Positions 5,841 to 19,447 of a stretch of DNA of 22,328 nt are shown one piece after another. Made by a program: the position numbers and the translations under genes. Within the stretch, counting starts at the first letter, position 1. Each line of letters opens with the position of its first letter. This DNA comes from a virus, in the IMG/VR virus record IMGVR_UViG_3300011189_000052, positions 1-22,328 of that record. The stretch is one strand, 5' to 3'. Under the pieces are notes generated by a model. That model did not search any database and was not told where the DNA came from. It saw nothing but the letters and a program-made list of their open reading frames with translations.

Positions 5841-7787
5841 ATGAGCAGATGGCTATTTGATATCGAGACGGATAATCTTCTCTGGAAATGCACACGTTGC
5901 TGGATCGTCTATTTGAGGCATCTGGACACCGGCGAAAAGCATTATTATCTGGAGGGCGACGAAGGCTGGCGAGAACACCTGGGCGCGGCGACGTTGGTGG
6001 TTGGTCACAACATCATCGATTTCGACATTCGCGCTCTTCGAAAGTTATTCGGTTTCGAGCTGAGAAAAGATTGTCGCATTCACGACACACTGGTGATGAG
6101 TCGCGTGTTGGACTACCGGCGGTTCGGTGACATGGGACATTCGTTAGGCGTGTGGGGCACTTACTTCGGCTACCCTAAGCTGGAGTTTGAAGATTTCTCG
6201 CAATACACCCCTCAGATGCTGACTTACTGTGAACGCGACGTGGACTTGAACATGAAAGTCTATGAACATGTCATGTCAGAATTCACAGGGTTGGCCGAAT
6301 CCGATGAACGGGTTGTACATTATCTGAAAGCAGAGCACGCGATCTCCAAGTGGTGTGCGGAAGCAGAATGGCACGGATGGCCCTTTGACGTAGAATCAGG
6401 CACATGGCTATTCTCTGAGATGAGCAGTAAGCTATACGCGACGACGGCGATCCTGGAAAGCAAGCTGGGTCGCAAAACAGTCGCTGTGGACAAATGCAAA
6501 GGCGAGATCGACGTCAAAAAACCTAAGTGGAAAATGGACGGCGACTACAGCCATCACACCGCGAAATGGTTCGAGATCGGCCCCGAGGAAGGTCAGGAAG
6601 ATGCATCGCGTCCAATCGACGGCGAGTACTGCCGCGTGGATTTCCCTCTCCTGAAACTCAGCTCTGTGCACGACGTGAAGATCTTTTTGTTCCGCAACGG
6701 ATGGGTTCCCACGCAATATAACTTCAAGCAGAATCCCGTGACATTCGAGAAGGTGCGCACGTCACCTAAGATTACGGAGGACTCATTGGAGTTTCTGGGA
6801 GGCGACGGCAAGCTGTACATGGAGTATCTCACCATCAAGTCTCGTTACGGAATACTGAAGACTTGGCTCCAGAATGTCGGCGCAGACGATTGTCTCAGAG
6901 GAGAATGCATAACCATCGGCACCCCGAGCATGCGAGCGCGACACAAGATCATCGTGAATGTTCCCTCCGAAGACTCTCTCTACGGGCCTGAATTGAGACG
7001 TCTTTTCACTTGCAAGAAAGGCTGGAAGCTGATCGGCTGTGATTCCGCAGGCAACCAAGCAAGGGGTCTCGCTCACTACCTGAACAACGATGAATTCACG
7101 CAGACTCTTTTGCACGACGATATTCACGATTACAACGCGCAGAAGCTCAAAGAAGTTCTCGCAAGCATGGGCATTGATTGGGACAGGTACCTGTCTTCCG
7201 AAGGCAGAGTCGTGCCCGAGGCAGGTCACACGCTGGCGCAGGCCATCAAAGCTAAACAGAGGTCAACTGCTAAGCGAATCCTCTATGCATTCTTGTTTGG
7301 CGCATCCGGCGAGAAACTCTGGGGCTATATCTTCGGACACCCTAAGCAAAAGCAGGGAAACACTCTCAAGAAAGGCTTCACCGCCGCCGTCCCAGGCTTC
7401 AAAGATCTCCTGGACAAGCTCGCCAGAGTCTACCGCTCGACATCTAGCGGGCACAACAAAGCGGACGGTTACATCCCTTCCATCGGTGGCATTCGTATCT
7501 ATGTGGACTCCTTCCACAAACTGCTGGTGTACCTGCTGCAATCCTGCGAGAAAGCCACCTGTGCCGGTGCTTGCTTGTTATTGATGCAGTACCTCGAAGA
7601 AGAAGAAATCCCCTACGTCCCTTGCATATTCATGCACGATGAATTAGATTTCCAAGTACCGGAAGAGCATGCGGAGAGAGCCGCAGAGTTGGGACAGAAA
7701 GCGTTCCAAGAAGGGCCGAAACTGTTTGGTATCACGATCATGGACGGTGACGGCAAAATCGGAATGAATTGGATGGATGTTCACTGA
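5841..7787 (+). CDS. T7 gp5-like family-A DNA polymerase with 3'-5' exonuclease
   Basis: 648 residues (T7 gp5 has 704). The exonuclease motifs are FDIETD with Asp7 and Glu9, HNIIDFDIRAL with Asp62, and YCERD with Asp133, matching T7 D5, E7, D65 and D174. Polymerase motif A is LIGCDSAGNQARGL with Asp401 (T7 D475). Motif B has Arg474, Lys478 and Tyr482 at the same spacing as T7 R518, K522 and Y526. Motif C is HDE at 599-601. The C-terminus GKIGMNWMDVH matches T7. All catalytic residues are present, so it should be active. Residues about 205-275 (KKPKWKMDGDYSHH region), just before GWVPTQY, occupy the place of the T7 thioredoxin-binding insertion. No earlier start is possible without losing the exonuclease motif position. 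The stop overlaps the next gene (TGATG). Confidence 0.97.
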   Translation: MSRWLFDIETDNLLWKCTRCWIVYLRHLDTGEKHYYLEGDEGWREHLGAATLVVGHNIIDFDIRALRKLFGFELRKDCRIHDTLVMSRVLDYRRFGDMGHSLGVWGTYFGYPKLEFEDFSQYTPQMLTYCERDVDLNMKVYEHVMSEFTGLAESDERVVHYLKAEHAISKWCAEAEWHGWPFDVESGTWLFSEMSSKLYATTAILESKLGRKTVAVDKCKGEIDVKKPKWKMDGDYSHHTAKWFEIGPEEGQEDASRPIDGEYCRVDFPLLKLSSVHDVKIFLFRNGWVPTQYNFKQNPVTFEKVRTSPKITEDSLEFLGGDGKLYMEYLTIKSRYGILKTWLQNVGADDCLRGECITIGTPSMRARHKIIVNVPSEDSLYGPELRRLFTCKKGWKLIGCDSAGNQARGLAHYLNNDEFTQTLLHDDIHDYNAQKLKEVLASMGIDWDRYLSSEGRVVPEAGHTLAQAIKAKQRSTAKRILYAFLFGASGEKLWGYIFGHPKQKQGNTLKKGFTAAVPGFKDLLDKLARVYRSTSSGHNKADGYIPSIGGIRIYVDSFHKLLVYLLQSCEKATCAGACLLLMQYLEEEEIPYVPCIFMHDELDFQVPEEHAERAAELGQKAFQEGPKLFGITIMDGDGKIGMNWMDVH

Positions 7788-8114: not shown

Positions 8115-8928
8115 GCTGATAATCCTGGACGGGGATGTGGTCGCTCACATCGCCTGTGAAAGAGCCTGGAAAGAGAAAGTCGAATACTTCAAAGTACACG
8201 GCATTGACATGGATCAGTTCAAGGGAGCGAAAGAGATACCCGGCTACGAGCCGCACAAGGACGAGAAGACTTTAGAGAAGTGTGTGCAGATGTTCCGCAG
8301 AGAAATGGATATCCTCTCCGAAGAGCTGTACAGCGACAATGTAATCATGGCAGTCAAGTCTGGGAAGAACTTCAGAGATGAGATCTACTCCGACTACAAA
8401 AGAGACAGGGGAAAGTGGAAAATCCCCAACCCATTCGTGGATATGATACGAAGCTACGCCGTCGAACAATCTTTCGCGACGTTCGCCGGGGATAAAGAAG
8501 CCGATGATCTCATAAGGATCTGGGCGGAAGAGGCGCGGAAGCATGACGTACCGTTTGTGGTCGCCTCTATTGACAAGGACCTGCGATGCATACCTGGCAG
8601 GCATTGGAACATCAAGAAGAAAATATTGGACACGGTCACAGAGCATGACGCCATGCAGCTTTACTATTCACAGCTGTTATCAGGTGACCCAACTGACTTT
8701 ATTCCGGGACTTCCAGGCATCGGTCCCAAGAAGGCAGTAAACGCCATCCTCCACTGCACCACGGAAGAAGAGTGTCAAGAGATCGTTTGCGCCATGTATT
8801 TCGAGGCTTATGGTCCCGAGTGGGAAACTTATCTGCTTTCGAACGGCAAGATGATACACATTCAGCGAGACTGGAATGATTACTTCACACTCAAAGAATG
8901 GGCTTTCGTGAGAGACCTGCGGGGATGA
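8104..8928 (+). CDS. T7 gp6-like 5'-3' exonuclease (FEN/PIN superfamily)
   Basis: 274 residues. It removes RNA primers and degrades DNA 5' ends, in T7 also host DNA. GTG start with AGGAGG eight bases ahead. LIILDGDVV (5-13) carries the first acidic residues. DYKRDRGKWKIPN (98-110) is the conserved basic segment. GDKEADDLI (129-137) and SIDKDLR (155-161) supply the metal-binding acidic clusters. GDPTDFIPGLPGIGPKKA (194-211) is the helix-3-turn-helix DNA-binding element with its acidic residues. All key acidic positions are present. It lies directly downstream of DNA polymerase, as gene 6 follows gene 5 in T7. Confidence 0.93.
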   Translation: MGDELIILDGDVVAHIACERAWKEKVEYFKVHGIDMDQFKGAKEIPGYEPHKDEKTLEKCVQMFRREMDILSEELYSDNVIMAVKSGKNFRDEIYSDYKRDRGKWKIPNPFVDMIRSYAVEQSFATFAGDKEADDLIRIWAEEARKHDVPFVVASIDKDLRCIPGRHWNIKKKILDTVTEHDAMQLYYSQLLSGDPTDFIPGLPGIGPKKAVNAILHCTTEEECQEIVCAMYFEAYGPEWETYLLSNGKMIHIQRDWNDYFTLKEWAFVRDLRG

Positions 8929-15231: not shown

Positions 15232-15251
15232 CCCTTCACCGGAGAAATATT

Positions 15252-15497
15252 ATGAAAGTTGTCGTATTCAGCGGACCCGGATGTTCGGGCTGCGAAGCCT
15301 TGAAGACATCGTTGGAGGCCGCGCGAATCCCTTTCGAAGAAGTCAACGTCGACACACAAGAGGGAGCCAAGTCGGCGATAAAGCACGGCGTGAGGACGCT
15401 GCCGACGACGTTATTGATGGATCACGACGTGGTCGTGCAGAAATTCATCGGCTTCAACTTCCTGCATATCAAGGAAATCACGAGAGGGTTGAGATGA
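15252..15497 (+). CDS. Glutaredoxin/thioredoxin-like redoxin with CSGC active site
   Basis: 81 residues, ATG with GGAGAA ahead. It has the thioredoxin fold order: strand MKVVVFSG, active site GPGCSGCEALK (Cys10 and Cys13), helix, strand FEEVNVDT, helix, the conserved cis-proline loop TLPTTLL, strand VVVQKFIG and a last helix. The length is in the glutaredoxin/NrdH range rather than full thioredoxin (about 105). It would reduce protein disulfides or a ribonucleotide reductase. No reductase gene is in the window. Because T7-type DNA polymerase uses host thioredoxin as processivity factor, a phage-encoded redoxin is suggestive, but binding is not shown. ATGA overlap with the next gene. Confidence 0.85.
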   Translation: MKVVVFSGPGCSGCEALKTSLEAARIPFEEVNVDTQEGAKSAIKHGVRTLPTTLLMDHDVVVQKFIGFNFLHIKEITRGLR

Positions 15498-15982
15498 ATG
15501 CATTTACGACGAGCACAGATCCCGCAACGTTTGCCGACGAGATGTGTGATCTGCGCCTGATCGAAACAGCTGAGTCTTACGCAGTGCTGTTGGGCATGTG
15601 TCATCGTCTCATAGACGGTTTCGGCCCTCTCTGGGTCGCTCACGACGGCAACGCTCGCCGGTGGTGGGAGCACAAAACCGACACTCTTGATGGAAGCGGC
15701 AAGAGAGTCCGTCTGACGGGCTATGTTCTCCTGTCTTTCAGAGGGAGGAACGGAGACGAGGCTTTGCAATGGGTCCGTCGTAGCTCGCTGAACTATATTT
15801 GGTTGAGAGAGGTTTGGTGCGCGGTTCTGGACAATTACGAAAAAGCGCTGGGAGTTGAACATGAGTATGAGAAGCTCAGGACAGCTCTTCGAGAGCCGCC
15901 GGAAAAGCTGCGGGAGGCGCCCGAGGGTGGCAGTAGCTCTCGTATCAGGGTCCCCAAATTCACATTACCGAAGAAGGCATGA
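15494..15982 (+). CDS. Conserved phage protein with a WVR-S..NY.WL motif
   Basis: 162 residues from the ATG at 15494 (ATGA overlap with the redoxin gene). The N-terminal part (EMCDLRLIETAESYAVLLGM) and the later ALQWVRRSSLNYIWLREVW followed by LDNYEKALGVEHEYEKL match a pattern I recall in uncharacterised phage and bacterial proteins: a helix with HL/ET..A..L, then C..WVRES..NY.WL, then EY..R(Y)G..H. The C-terminal 35 residues are Pro/Glu-rich and basic, likely disordered. A DNA repair role has been suspected for some relatives because of their gene neighbours, but I cannot establish it here. Confidence 0.65.
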   Translation: MNAFTTSTDPATFADEMCDLRLIETAESYAVLLGMCHRLIDGFGPLWVAHDGNARRWWEHKTDTLDGSGKRVRLTGYVLLSFRGRNGDEALQWVRRSSLNYIWLREVWCAVLDNYEKALGVEHEYEKLRTALREPPEKLREAPEGGSSSRIRVPKFTLPKKA

Positions 15983-17114: not shown

Positions 17115-17440
17115 GTACGCGCAGCGGCGGTCAAGGGGCGCGAGAGAGGCCAGCCTCGTGGGCGTCGACGACGCCATGCCGTCGGTATCGCCTCCGCCGC
17201 CGAACATGCGCGGTGGTGCCCACAGAGCCGACATCGGCGGGTCTCCGTCCGGCAACGGCGAAATCCCCAACTTCACGGACGAGCACCCCCGCAAGAGTTT
17301 CGCGGATTTGGAACGAGAGGTGGCCGCACTCCTTGGGCCGCATGGGCCAGGAGGCCGTTGATTTAACCCTAGAATATAGTACGGGCGAACCGCGCTTTAA
17401 GCGCAATCCAGAAATCATGAGGAATTATCAGAATGACTGA
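17098..17440 (+). pseudogene. Small gene split by a +1 shift at GGG
   Basis: From the ATG at 17098 the frame runs 87 residues and stops at 17361 after a helix FADLEREVAALLG that is cut short as PHGPGGR. The +1 frame continues naturally as RMGQEAVDLTLEYSTGE with PEIMRNYQND and ends at TGA 17438-17440, overlapping the next gene's start at 17433. Removing one G from GGG at 17335-17337 joins them (ALLG-RMGQEAVDL), giving 113 residues. The N-terminal half is low-complexity, Pro/Gly/Ser/Arg-rich and more GC-rich than its surroundings. A free-standing 32-residue gene from ATG 17342 is the alternative. Confidence 0.55.
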
Positions 17441-18020
17441 ACTGAAGCAAGTGTATCAAGCAGCCGACGGAACCGTCTTTAACTCGAAGAGAGAAGCCGA
17501 AGATCACCAGCGGCGGCCTCAGCAGCGCACCGCGCTGATGACTCTTGTAGAAGGCAACGAGGAGCTGGCCGACTGGCTGCTTGAGCACAAGTCAGACTTG
17601 GAAGAGAACTTCGACATCGGCACAGTACGCCGGGTGACGAAAAGCGAAAGGAACAAGCTGACTAAGGCACTGGAAGCGCTCAAAGAAGAAGAGGGCGATA
17701 ACAAGAAGTACGCTTTCTTGATCGAGCACAGTGACGACATCATCAAGTCCTTCAAGTGGCCCGGTCAGAAGCGCCTCACCGGCGACGATAAAGACGCTGC
17801 CATCAAGGAAGCACTTACGGAGCTGGTCGGCGACGACAACCTGAAGCTGGCTGACTACATCGTGGCCAAGCGTGACGACATCGTCGAAGCTTTCAATGCG
17901 GGTAAGCCGAAACGTGAAGTCACTCCGCAAGCTCTGGAAGGTCTGCGTAAGTATCAAGAAAAGATGAAGGCTGAAAAAGAAGCCAAGAAAGCCGCCGAAG
18001 AGGCAGCTAAGGCAGAGTAA
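17433..18020 (+). CDS. Conserved phage protein built of three internal repeats
   Basis: 195 residues. The N-terminus (VYQAADGTVFNSKREAEDH) has the 'G.(V/I)F.(S/T)..EAE.(H/Y)' look of a family I recognise in other phages, without known function. Residues 38-83, about 86-131 and 132-175 are three copies of one unit: L(A)DxxxxxxDDI(x)xxFxxGxxKRxVT......L..AL. The repeats differ in detail (ENFDIGTVRRVTK, KSFKWPGQKRLTG, EAFNAGKPKREVT). The C-terminal 20 residues are Lys/Ala/Glu-rich helix. It may be an adaptor that bundles copies of a small helical domain. A hairpin-rich leader and a terminator follow the gene. Confidence 0.8.
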   Translation: MTELKQVYQAADGTVFNSKREAEDHQRRPQQRTALMTLVEGNEELADWLLEHKSDLEENFDIGTVRRVTKSERNKLTKALEALKEEEGDNKKYAFLIEHSDDIIKSFKWPGQKRLTGDDKDAAIKEALTELVGDDNLKLADYIVAKRDDIVEAFNAGKPKREVTPQALEGLRKYQEKMKAEKEAKKAAEEAAKAE

Positions 18021-18814: not shown

Positions 18815-19281
18815 ATGATTGAGTATACCACGGTTGCAGCGATGTACTCGGGCGATCCCACCGTCTACACATTCTTGTGCAAGATGGAGCTGGCGGAAAA
18901 GCTCGTCCCGCAAGACAAGGTCGTAGCCAAGTCCGCCAGAGGTTTAGGTGTTGTCATGATTCTGGACGTCCACGACGTGCCCAGAGACACCGGCAACTTC
19001 AACTATCGCTGGGTGTTCCAGAAGGTGGACACGGATGAGATAGCGGAGCTGGAGAAAGCTCAGTTGAACAAAGACATAAAGCGGGCCAGTGAGGCCGAAT
19101 CCGAGCCGGAAGACGTGGCCGCGATCAAGGCCGCCGTGGGAGGGCTCGCGCCAAAAAAGCCGCCAGTGAAGATTCCGAGCGTGCCGAAACTCTGAAGTCG
19201 GATCTTGATCATCTGGAAGCCGAACTGGAAAAGATTCAGCTTCTGGTGATCTCCATAAAGAGAGGTCTCTATGGGGAATGA
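18815..19281 (+). CDS. Conserved phage protein with candidate programmed -1 frameshift
   Basis: The zero frame gives 126 residues (18815-19195). Its core (VYTFLCKMELAEKLVPQDKV, VVAKSARGLGVVMI, DVPRDTG, FNYRWVFQKVDTDE) is a pattern I recognise from small phage proteins of unknown function: a barrel-like beta domain followed by a helix. The zero frame ends weakly as PPVKIPSVPKL. At 19153-19159 the sequence is A_AAA_AAG in phase (cca-aaa-aag). A -1 slip leads into AASEDSERAETLKSDLDHL and EAELEKIQLLVISIKRGL, ending at TGA 19279-19281: a 155-residue product with a coiled-coil-like tail that fills the gap to the next start at 19271. GGGAGG at 19138-19143 lies nine bases upstream of the slip site. 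Alternatively one A is simply missing from the run. Confidence 0.75.
19138..19204 (+). promoter_or_regulatory. dnaX-like -1 frameshift signal
   Basis: In order: Shine-Dalgarno-like GGGAGG (19138-19143), nine-base spacer, slippery A_AAA_AAG (19153-19159), 11-base spacer, and a possible stem pairing GAT-CCGA (19171-19178, T bulged) with TCGGATC (19198-19204). E. coli dnaX has AGGGAG ten bases before the same heptamer and a stem-loop after it. The upstream two elements are clear here; the stem is modest (seven pairs, 19-base loop). Confidence 0.55.
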
Positions 19282-19447
19282 ATTCATCGTGCTGAACATC
19301 GGCGACGTGGCTAAATGTCTTGAAGCGAAGGACATAAACGCACTCGTGGAACTCGTCGACAAGTTTCAGAAGAAGTATAAAGAACTAAATCAAGGACGGT
19401 TGCCAACTTATGTAGTGCTACCGGAGAACATTGATGACGTATCTTAA
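19271..19447 (+). CDS. 58-residue protein, unknown
   Basis: The ATG at 19271 has AGAGAGG ahead and overlaps the -1 frame end of the gene before by 11 bases. The product has a short strand (EFIVLNIGDV), a helical middle (NALVELVDKFQKKYKELN) and a strand TYVVLPENI. Soluble and small. It overlaps the next start by 14 bases. Confidence 0.65.
   Translation: MGNEFIVLNIGDVAKCLEAKDINALVELVDKFQKKYKELNQGRLPTYVVLPENIDDVS

Follow-up and report, generated by a model that had tools for sequence, protein, structure and literature searches.

A small gene of the virus record IMGVR_UViG_3300011189_000052 is predicted, with good confidence, to use programmed -1 ribosomal frameshifting for the production of two proteins, and this gene is thereby a predicted new member, in an unusual gene context, of the known dnaX-like class of -1 frameshifts. 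Ribosomes staying in the zero frame would end at the TGA at 19193–19195 and make a 126-residue protein. A fraction of the ribosomes, held by pairing of an internal GGGAGG with 16S rRNA, would slip at the heptamer A_AAA_AAG into the -1 frame and read on to position 19281, giving a 155-residue form. The first 115 residues would be common to both products, and the longer product would continue into a short coiled coil, by which it may oligomerise or recruit a partner. Slippage itself and its rate are what we infer from the sequence.

The window, i.e., the whole 22.3-kb stretch (22,328 nucleotides) that was analysed, encodes a T7-type RNA polymerase (PF00940, E = 1.3e-60) and a family A DNA polymerase according to Pfam, together with a primase-helicase and many small genes. 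The gene, its signals, and the next gene are all on the plus strand. The zero-frame ORF covers 18815–19195, and its product has the C-terminus ...KIPSVPKL, which is kept by all close relatives. The -1 frame extension (19159–19281) consists of 40 heptad-patterned codons (19159–19278) and a TGA (19279–19281), and the peptide expected across the slip site of the fused product is APKKAASEDSER. The next gene, encoding 58 residues, lies at 19271–19447 with its ATG at 19271. The initial annotation of this DNA had derived two products of 126 and 155 residues from a -1 frame of 40 residues, and both the arithmetic and the presence of the frame proved correct. Its description of that frame as closing exactly at the start of the next gene is slightly loose: the frame does reach the start, but overlaps it from the ATG by 11 nt.

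A direct DNA search of phage genomes gave no matches to this gene, and when viral contigs were scanned with the single protein, the sole match was 3300011185_000017 (L001), which is 99.4% identical to the window over 7.7 kb with 21 mismatches. Distant relatives were reached via the neighbouring genes: scans with the ligase and the primase-helicase led to 3300028374_000775 (L007), and a scan with the gene at 17433 led to 3300035254_000241 (L084), 3300028410_000014 (L085), and 3300012269_000016 (L086). Further scans for relatives added nothing new, and a genome-contig match (L080) was discarded as a false positive, being a methyltransferase-like ORF by eye. The gene used in the latter scan (17433–18020, 195 residues) is itself conserved and unnamed, with 79 loci in one viral-contig scan and without a convincing Pfam match. 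L085 and L086 are close to one another; L007, L084, and the L085/L086 pair represent three independent lineages beyond that of the window, and their proteins are about 40–47% identical to that of the window, depending on the alignment. Five further contigs (four lineages including the window) close the zero frame with [IV]P[SH]V[PA]KL-stop, and in all lineages the -1 frame passes the stop by 20–29 codons to the next gene, which it overlaps by 4–11 nt. Thus, three further independent lineages have the tail in the -1 frame and not in the zero frame, with the zero-frame C-terminus kept as well. That such distant relatives keep the hidden tail marks it as a real coding feature, not a sequencing error. 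Two other ORFs were seen in these contigs: a second, longer ORF at 2636–3373 of L084 with a weak match (E = 2e-4) to the core-domain profile, and a 634-residue, reverse-transcriptase-like ORF (by eye) at 8628–10532 of L085, 3′ of the homologous region.

The putative slippery heptamer A_AAA_AAG (19153–19159) is in phase, the zero frame reading CCA AAA AAG, and GGGAGG (19138–19143) precedes it by nine bases, as had been noted at the outset. This hexamer is the core of an internal Shine-Dalgarno (SD)-like sequence, TGGGAGGG (19137–19144), whose pairing energy with the anti-SD, -10.4 kcal/mol, is within the top 0.5% among equal-sized stretches of the window contig. The genes of the window contain 15 in-phase X_XXY_YYZ heptamers in 5688 codons; the one at 19153–19159 is the sole A_AAA_AAG among them, and is one of only two with a -1 frame outrunning its gene. 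In the region 15246–15982, a glutaredoxin-like ORF (15246–15497) has an in-phase C_CCT_TTC at 15329, and the -1 frame there continues without a stop across the entire following gene, which is probably a gene overlap. A_AAA_AAG ranks in the top three heptamers for efficiency in E. coli (PMC4066793); slippage at it depends on the host and its lysine tRNAs.

Within its final 40 codons, the gene contains exactly one in-phase X_XXY_YYZ in the window (A_AAA_AAG), L084 (A_AAC_CCG), and L085/L086 (A_AAC_CCT), located 33, 36, and 39 nt, respectively, from the stop. The site of L007, G_GAA_AAG, is imperfect, leaving perfect heptamers in three of the four lineages; a G_GA first triplet is known at other frameshift sites (PMC5009743), and no tetramer is more slippery in E. 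coli than A_AAG (PMC4066793). When codons were shuffled, which keeps the Lys/Pro-rich composition of the ends, the probability of a heptamer in at least three of four lineages was 0.025, so that the recurrence is moderate support, short of proof. Heptamers with CCN are weaker on average in E. coli (PMC4066793), and A_AAC_CCG, with CCN and heterogeneous codons, should be a weak one. L084 has a second candidate, A_AAG in CCT AAA AAG, that is indistinguishable from A_AAC_CCG as a slip site. Strong anti-SD pairing is found 8–13 nt 5′ of the site in the window and in L085/L086 (top 1.2% of the contig), and the SD-like stimulator is weak in L007 and L084. Conservation among homologues therefore holds for the -1 tail, not for the exact heptamer, and for a strong SD-like sequence only in the window and L085/L086.

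Downstream RNA structure differs likewise between the lineages. The stem-loop that the initial annotation placed after the slip site would be formed by AAGATTCCGA and TCGGATCTT (about 19169–19206), but this weak stem is no better than chance: the minimum free energy (MFE) gave z-scores of -0.2 to +1.5 against shuffled sequences, and the stem was dropped as a stimulator. L007 has a strong hairpin about 8 nt 3′ of its site (MFE -20.3, z -3.3, top 0.7%), that of L084 is marginal (z -1.8), and none was found 3′ of the site in L085 by MFE against shuffles. A comparison with Rfam returned nothing near the gathering score. In short, a site is present in all four lineages, in most of them with one stimulator, which differs in type, SD-like in the window and L085/L086 and a hairpin in L007.

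How else could the tail be reached? No ATG, GTG, or TTG occurs as a tail start at a place common to the lineages, and the only one in the window is deep inside the tail. An internal ATG of L007 and L085, 32 nt past the stop, was considered and rejected: it is absent in the window and L084, and its use would lose about half of the heptads. An unlikely, though not negligible, alternative is stop-start coupling, in which ribosomes terminate at the zero-frame stop and restart at an overlapping -1 codon, CTG or TTG, to make a separate peptide of 20–30 residues. The -1 codon over the stop is indeed CTG in the window and L084 and TTG in L007, and the conserved part of the tail begins about at the stop. 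In L085 and L086, however, that codon is TTA, which is not a start; SD-like sequences are missing ahead of the overlap codon, apart from one of modest strength in the window (-5.4), and the strong SD-like sequences lie about 49–67 nt 5′ of the stop, beside the heptamers. Since the lineages have no common usable start codon for the tail, -1 frameshifting fits best.

The tail peptides themselves speak for translation. Past the stop, they read LKSDLDHLEAELEKIQLLVISIKRGLYGE in the window, LIARLEADLKQMQETIHLLKRESDDS in L007, LRAKVETVEALLSIIKQELK in L084, and LIAELERRVVNMQRVIEDLKNA in L085. The comparison of L007 with L085 gave a score of 36 against 17.3 ± 3.5 for shuffles, and the window resembles L007 (p = 0.013) and L084 (p = 0.018); the likeness is insignificant between L084 and L085 (p = 0.61) and between the window and L085 (p = 0.20). 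The same stretches in the other two frames score just 9–20. The coiled-coil look of the tail, proposed from the window alone, also extends to the other three lineages, as all four tails fit the heptad pattern better than their own shuffles (each p 0.0064 or less). Furthermore, L085 and L086 have about 4% base differences over a long alignment; they are identical at 7222–7332, a segment spanning the overlap, and the single change in their tails is synonymous in the -1 frame. It is very improbable, then, that the tail is untranslated and belongs to an intergenic stretch that merely carries the ribosome-binding site of the next gene and is open by chance. Openness taken alone would allow this, with shuffle probabilities of 0.15–0.43 per lineage (product 0.007) that make it weak evidence; yet the heptad pattern is present in four of four tails, the peptides are alike in the -1 frame and not in the others, and the stops sit at the start of the next gene in all lineages.

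That a single ORF was split by a base missing from a homopolymer, whether through a mistake in assembly or sequencing or through genuine frame loss, is barely credible: the site does consist of six consecutive A, and other ORF breaks of the window had been seen at homopolymers, but L001, a separate contig with its 21 other mismatches, has the same six A, and the -1 arrangement recurs together with the zero-frame ending in three other lineages with different site sequences, so that the earlier caution about a missing A falls away and the site is best read as a programmed -1 frameshift. A +1 shift of the RF2 type at CUU or CUC before the stop was also considered and discarded: in the window, L084, L085, and L086, the +1 frame ends within 7–13 nt of the zero-frame stop, and only in L007 is it open for longer (70 nt).

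The domain common to both products was expected to be beta-rich, and a structure model built from five sequences (mean pLDDT 71.5; 81–88 for the first 50 residues) indeed shows a small group of five strands and then a helix. The N-terminal domain of this predicted model (residues 4–79, 18824–19051) has a fold like the 3′-DNA-binding domain (3′BD) of PriA. When the Foldseek matches were re-examined, the top three were all PriA: 6dcr (Z 9.0, rmsd 2.6, 73 aligned), 4nl4 (Z 7.4), and 2d7e (Z 6.0), the last being the isolated N-terminal domain of E. coli PriA. The best non-PriA matches were tudor domains (Z 5.1), and the viral matches include proteins named primosomal. Searches by sequence, in Pfam up to E 10 and in the PDB, did not return PriA, so the domain is called PriA-like in fold only; Pfam gave nothing convincing for the protein as a whole. 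The family corresponds to phrog_13551 (E = 2.6e-9) and phrog_3489 (E = 8e-6), which are annotated without a function and are homologous in the N-terminal domain. Their members in isolated phages adjoin genes for DNA polymerase, RNase H, ligase, and the like. Probably, judging from the predicted model and the neighbouring genes, the shared domain is a nucleic-acid-binding domain of PriA 3′BD fold acting in phage DNA replication. The PriA-like fold of the core domain (18815–19051) is thus a lead on the function of phrog_13551 and phrog_3489.

Taken together, the full picture would be a replication accessory protein, PriA 3′BD-like, made in two forms that differ by a coiled coil, through -1 frameshifting retained in an entire phage group whose lineages have swapped both heptamer and stimulator (SD or hairpin); we give this picture about an even chance. 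Most of the phage frameshifts of which we found descriptions belong to genes for tail chaperones and coat proteins, and a conserved frameshift in a probable DNA-replication gene would be a dnaX-like case outside them, kept by selection though its slip site changes. It is also a warning that gene callers miss so small a tail.

Among the known systems, the closest is E. coli dnaX, which uses the same A_AAA_AAG and also a 5′ SD (PMC5009743), the SD-like sequence of the window being at nearly the same distance; dnaX is a replication gene, as the present gene probably is. The two genes are unrelated, however, and the shifted product is the shorter one in dnaX and the longer one here, although in a few bacteria dnaX is reported to have the reversed arrangement (PMC5009743). 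Of the features of the dnaX-like class, the window has the in-phase heptamer, the SD-like stimulator, and a -1 tail kept by homologues, and lacks a supported stem-loop such as dnaX has. Such a downstream structure is absent from some prokaryotic cases (PMC4066793) and hence optional; its absence counts against a strict copy of dnaX, not against frameshifting. Lambda G/GT and the other frameshifts of tail assembly chaperones resemble the present case in being phage genes with a -1 slip near the end and a C-terminal extension. In contrast to them, our gene lies among small genes downstream of DNA-metabolism genes and has a PriA 3′BD-like domain, and identity with G/GT was rejected, as none of the PHROG matches is a tail chaperone and the nearest named genes are for DNA metabolism. 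Gene 10 of T7/T3 (10A/10B) also has a -1 extension at its end in a phage with a T7-type RNA polymerase, but is a capsid gene with another extension and another slip site (first triplet G_GU in T7; PMC5009743). Finally, the phrog_13551 and phrog_3489 proteins of KPP25, AQKL99, Nipunavirus, and Korravirus have the homologous N-terminal domain, but their C-terminal helical part is encoded in the zero frame, and a heptamer close to the end is lacking. Homology of these zero-frame ends with the -1 tails could not be demonstrated. The position of this part in the zero frame suggests that the longer form is the usual shape of the family, and that the frameshift group would produce a short form alongside the long one.
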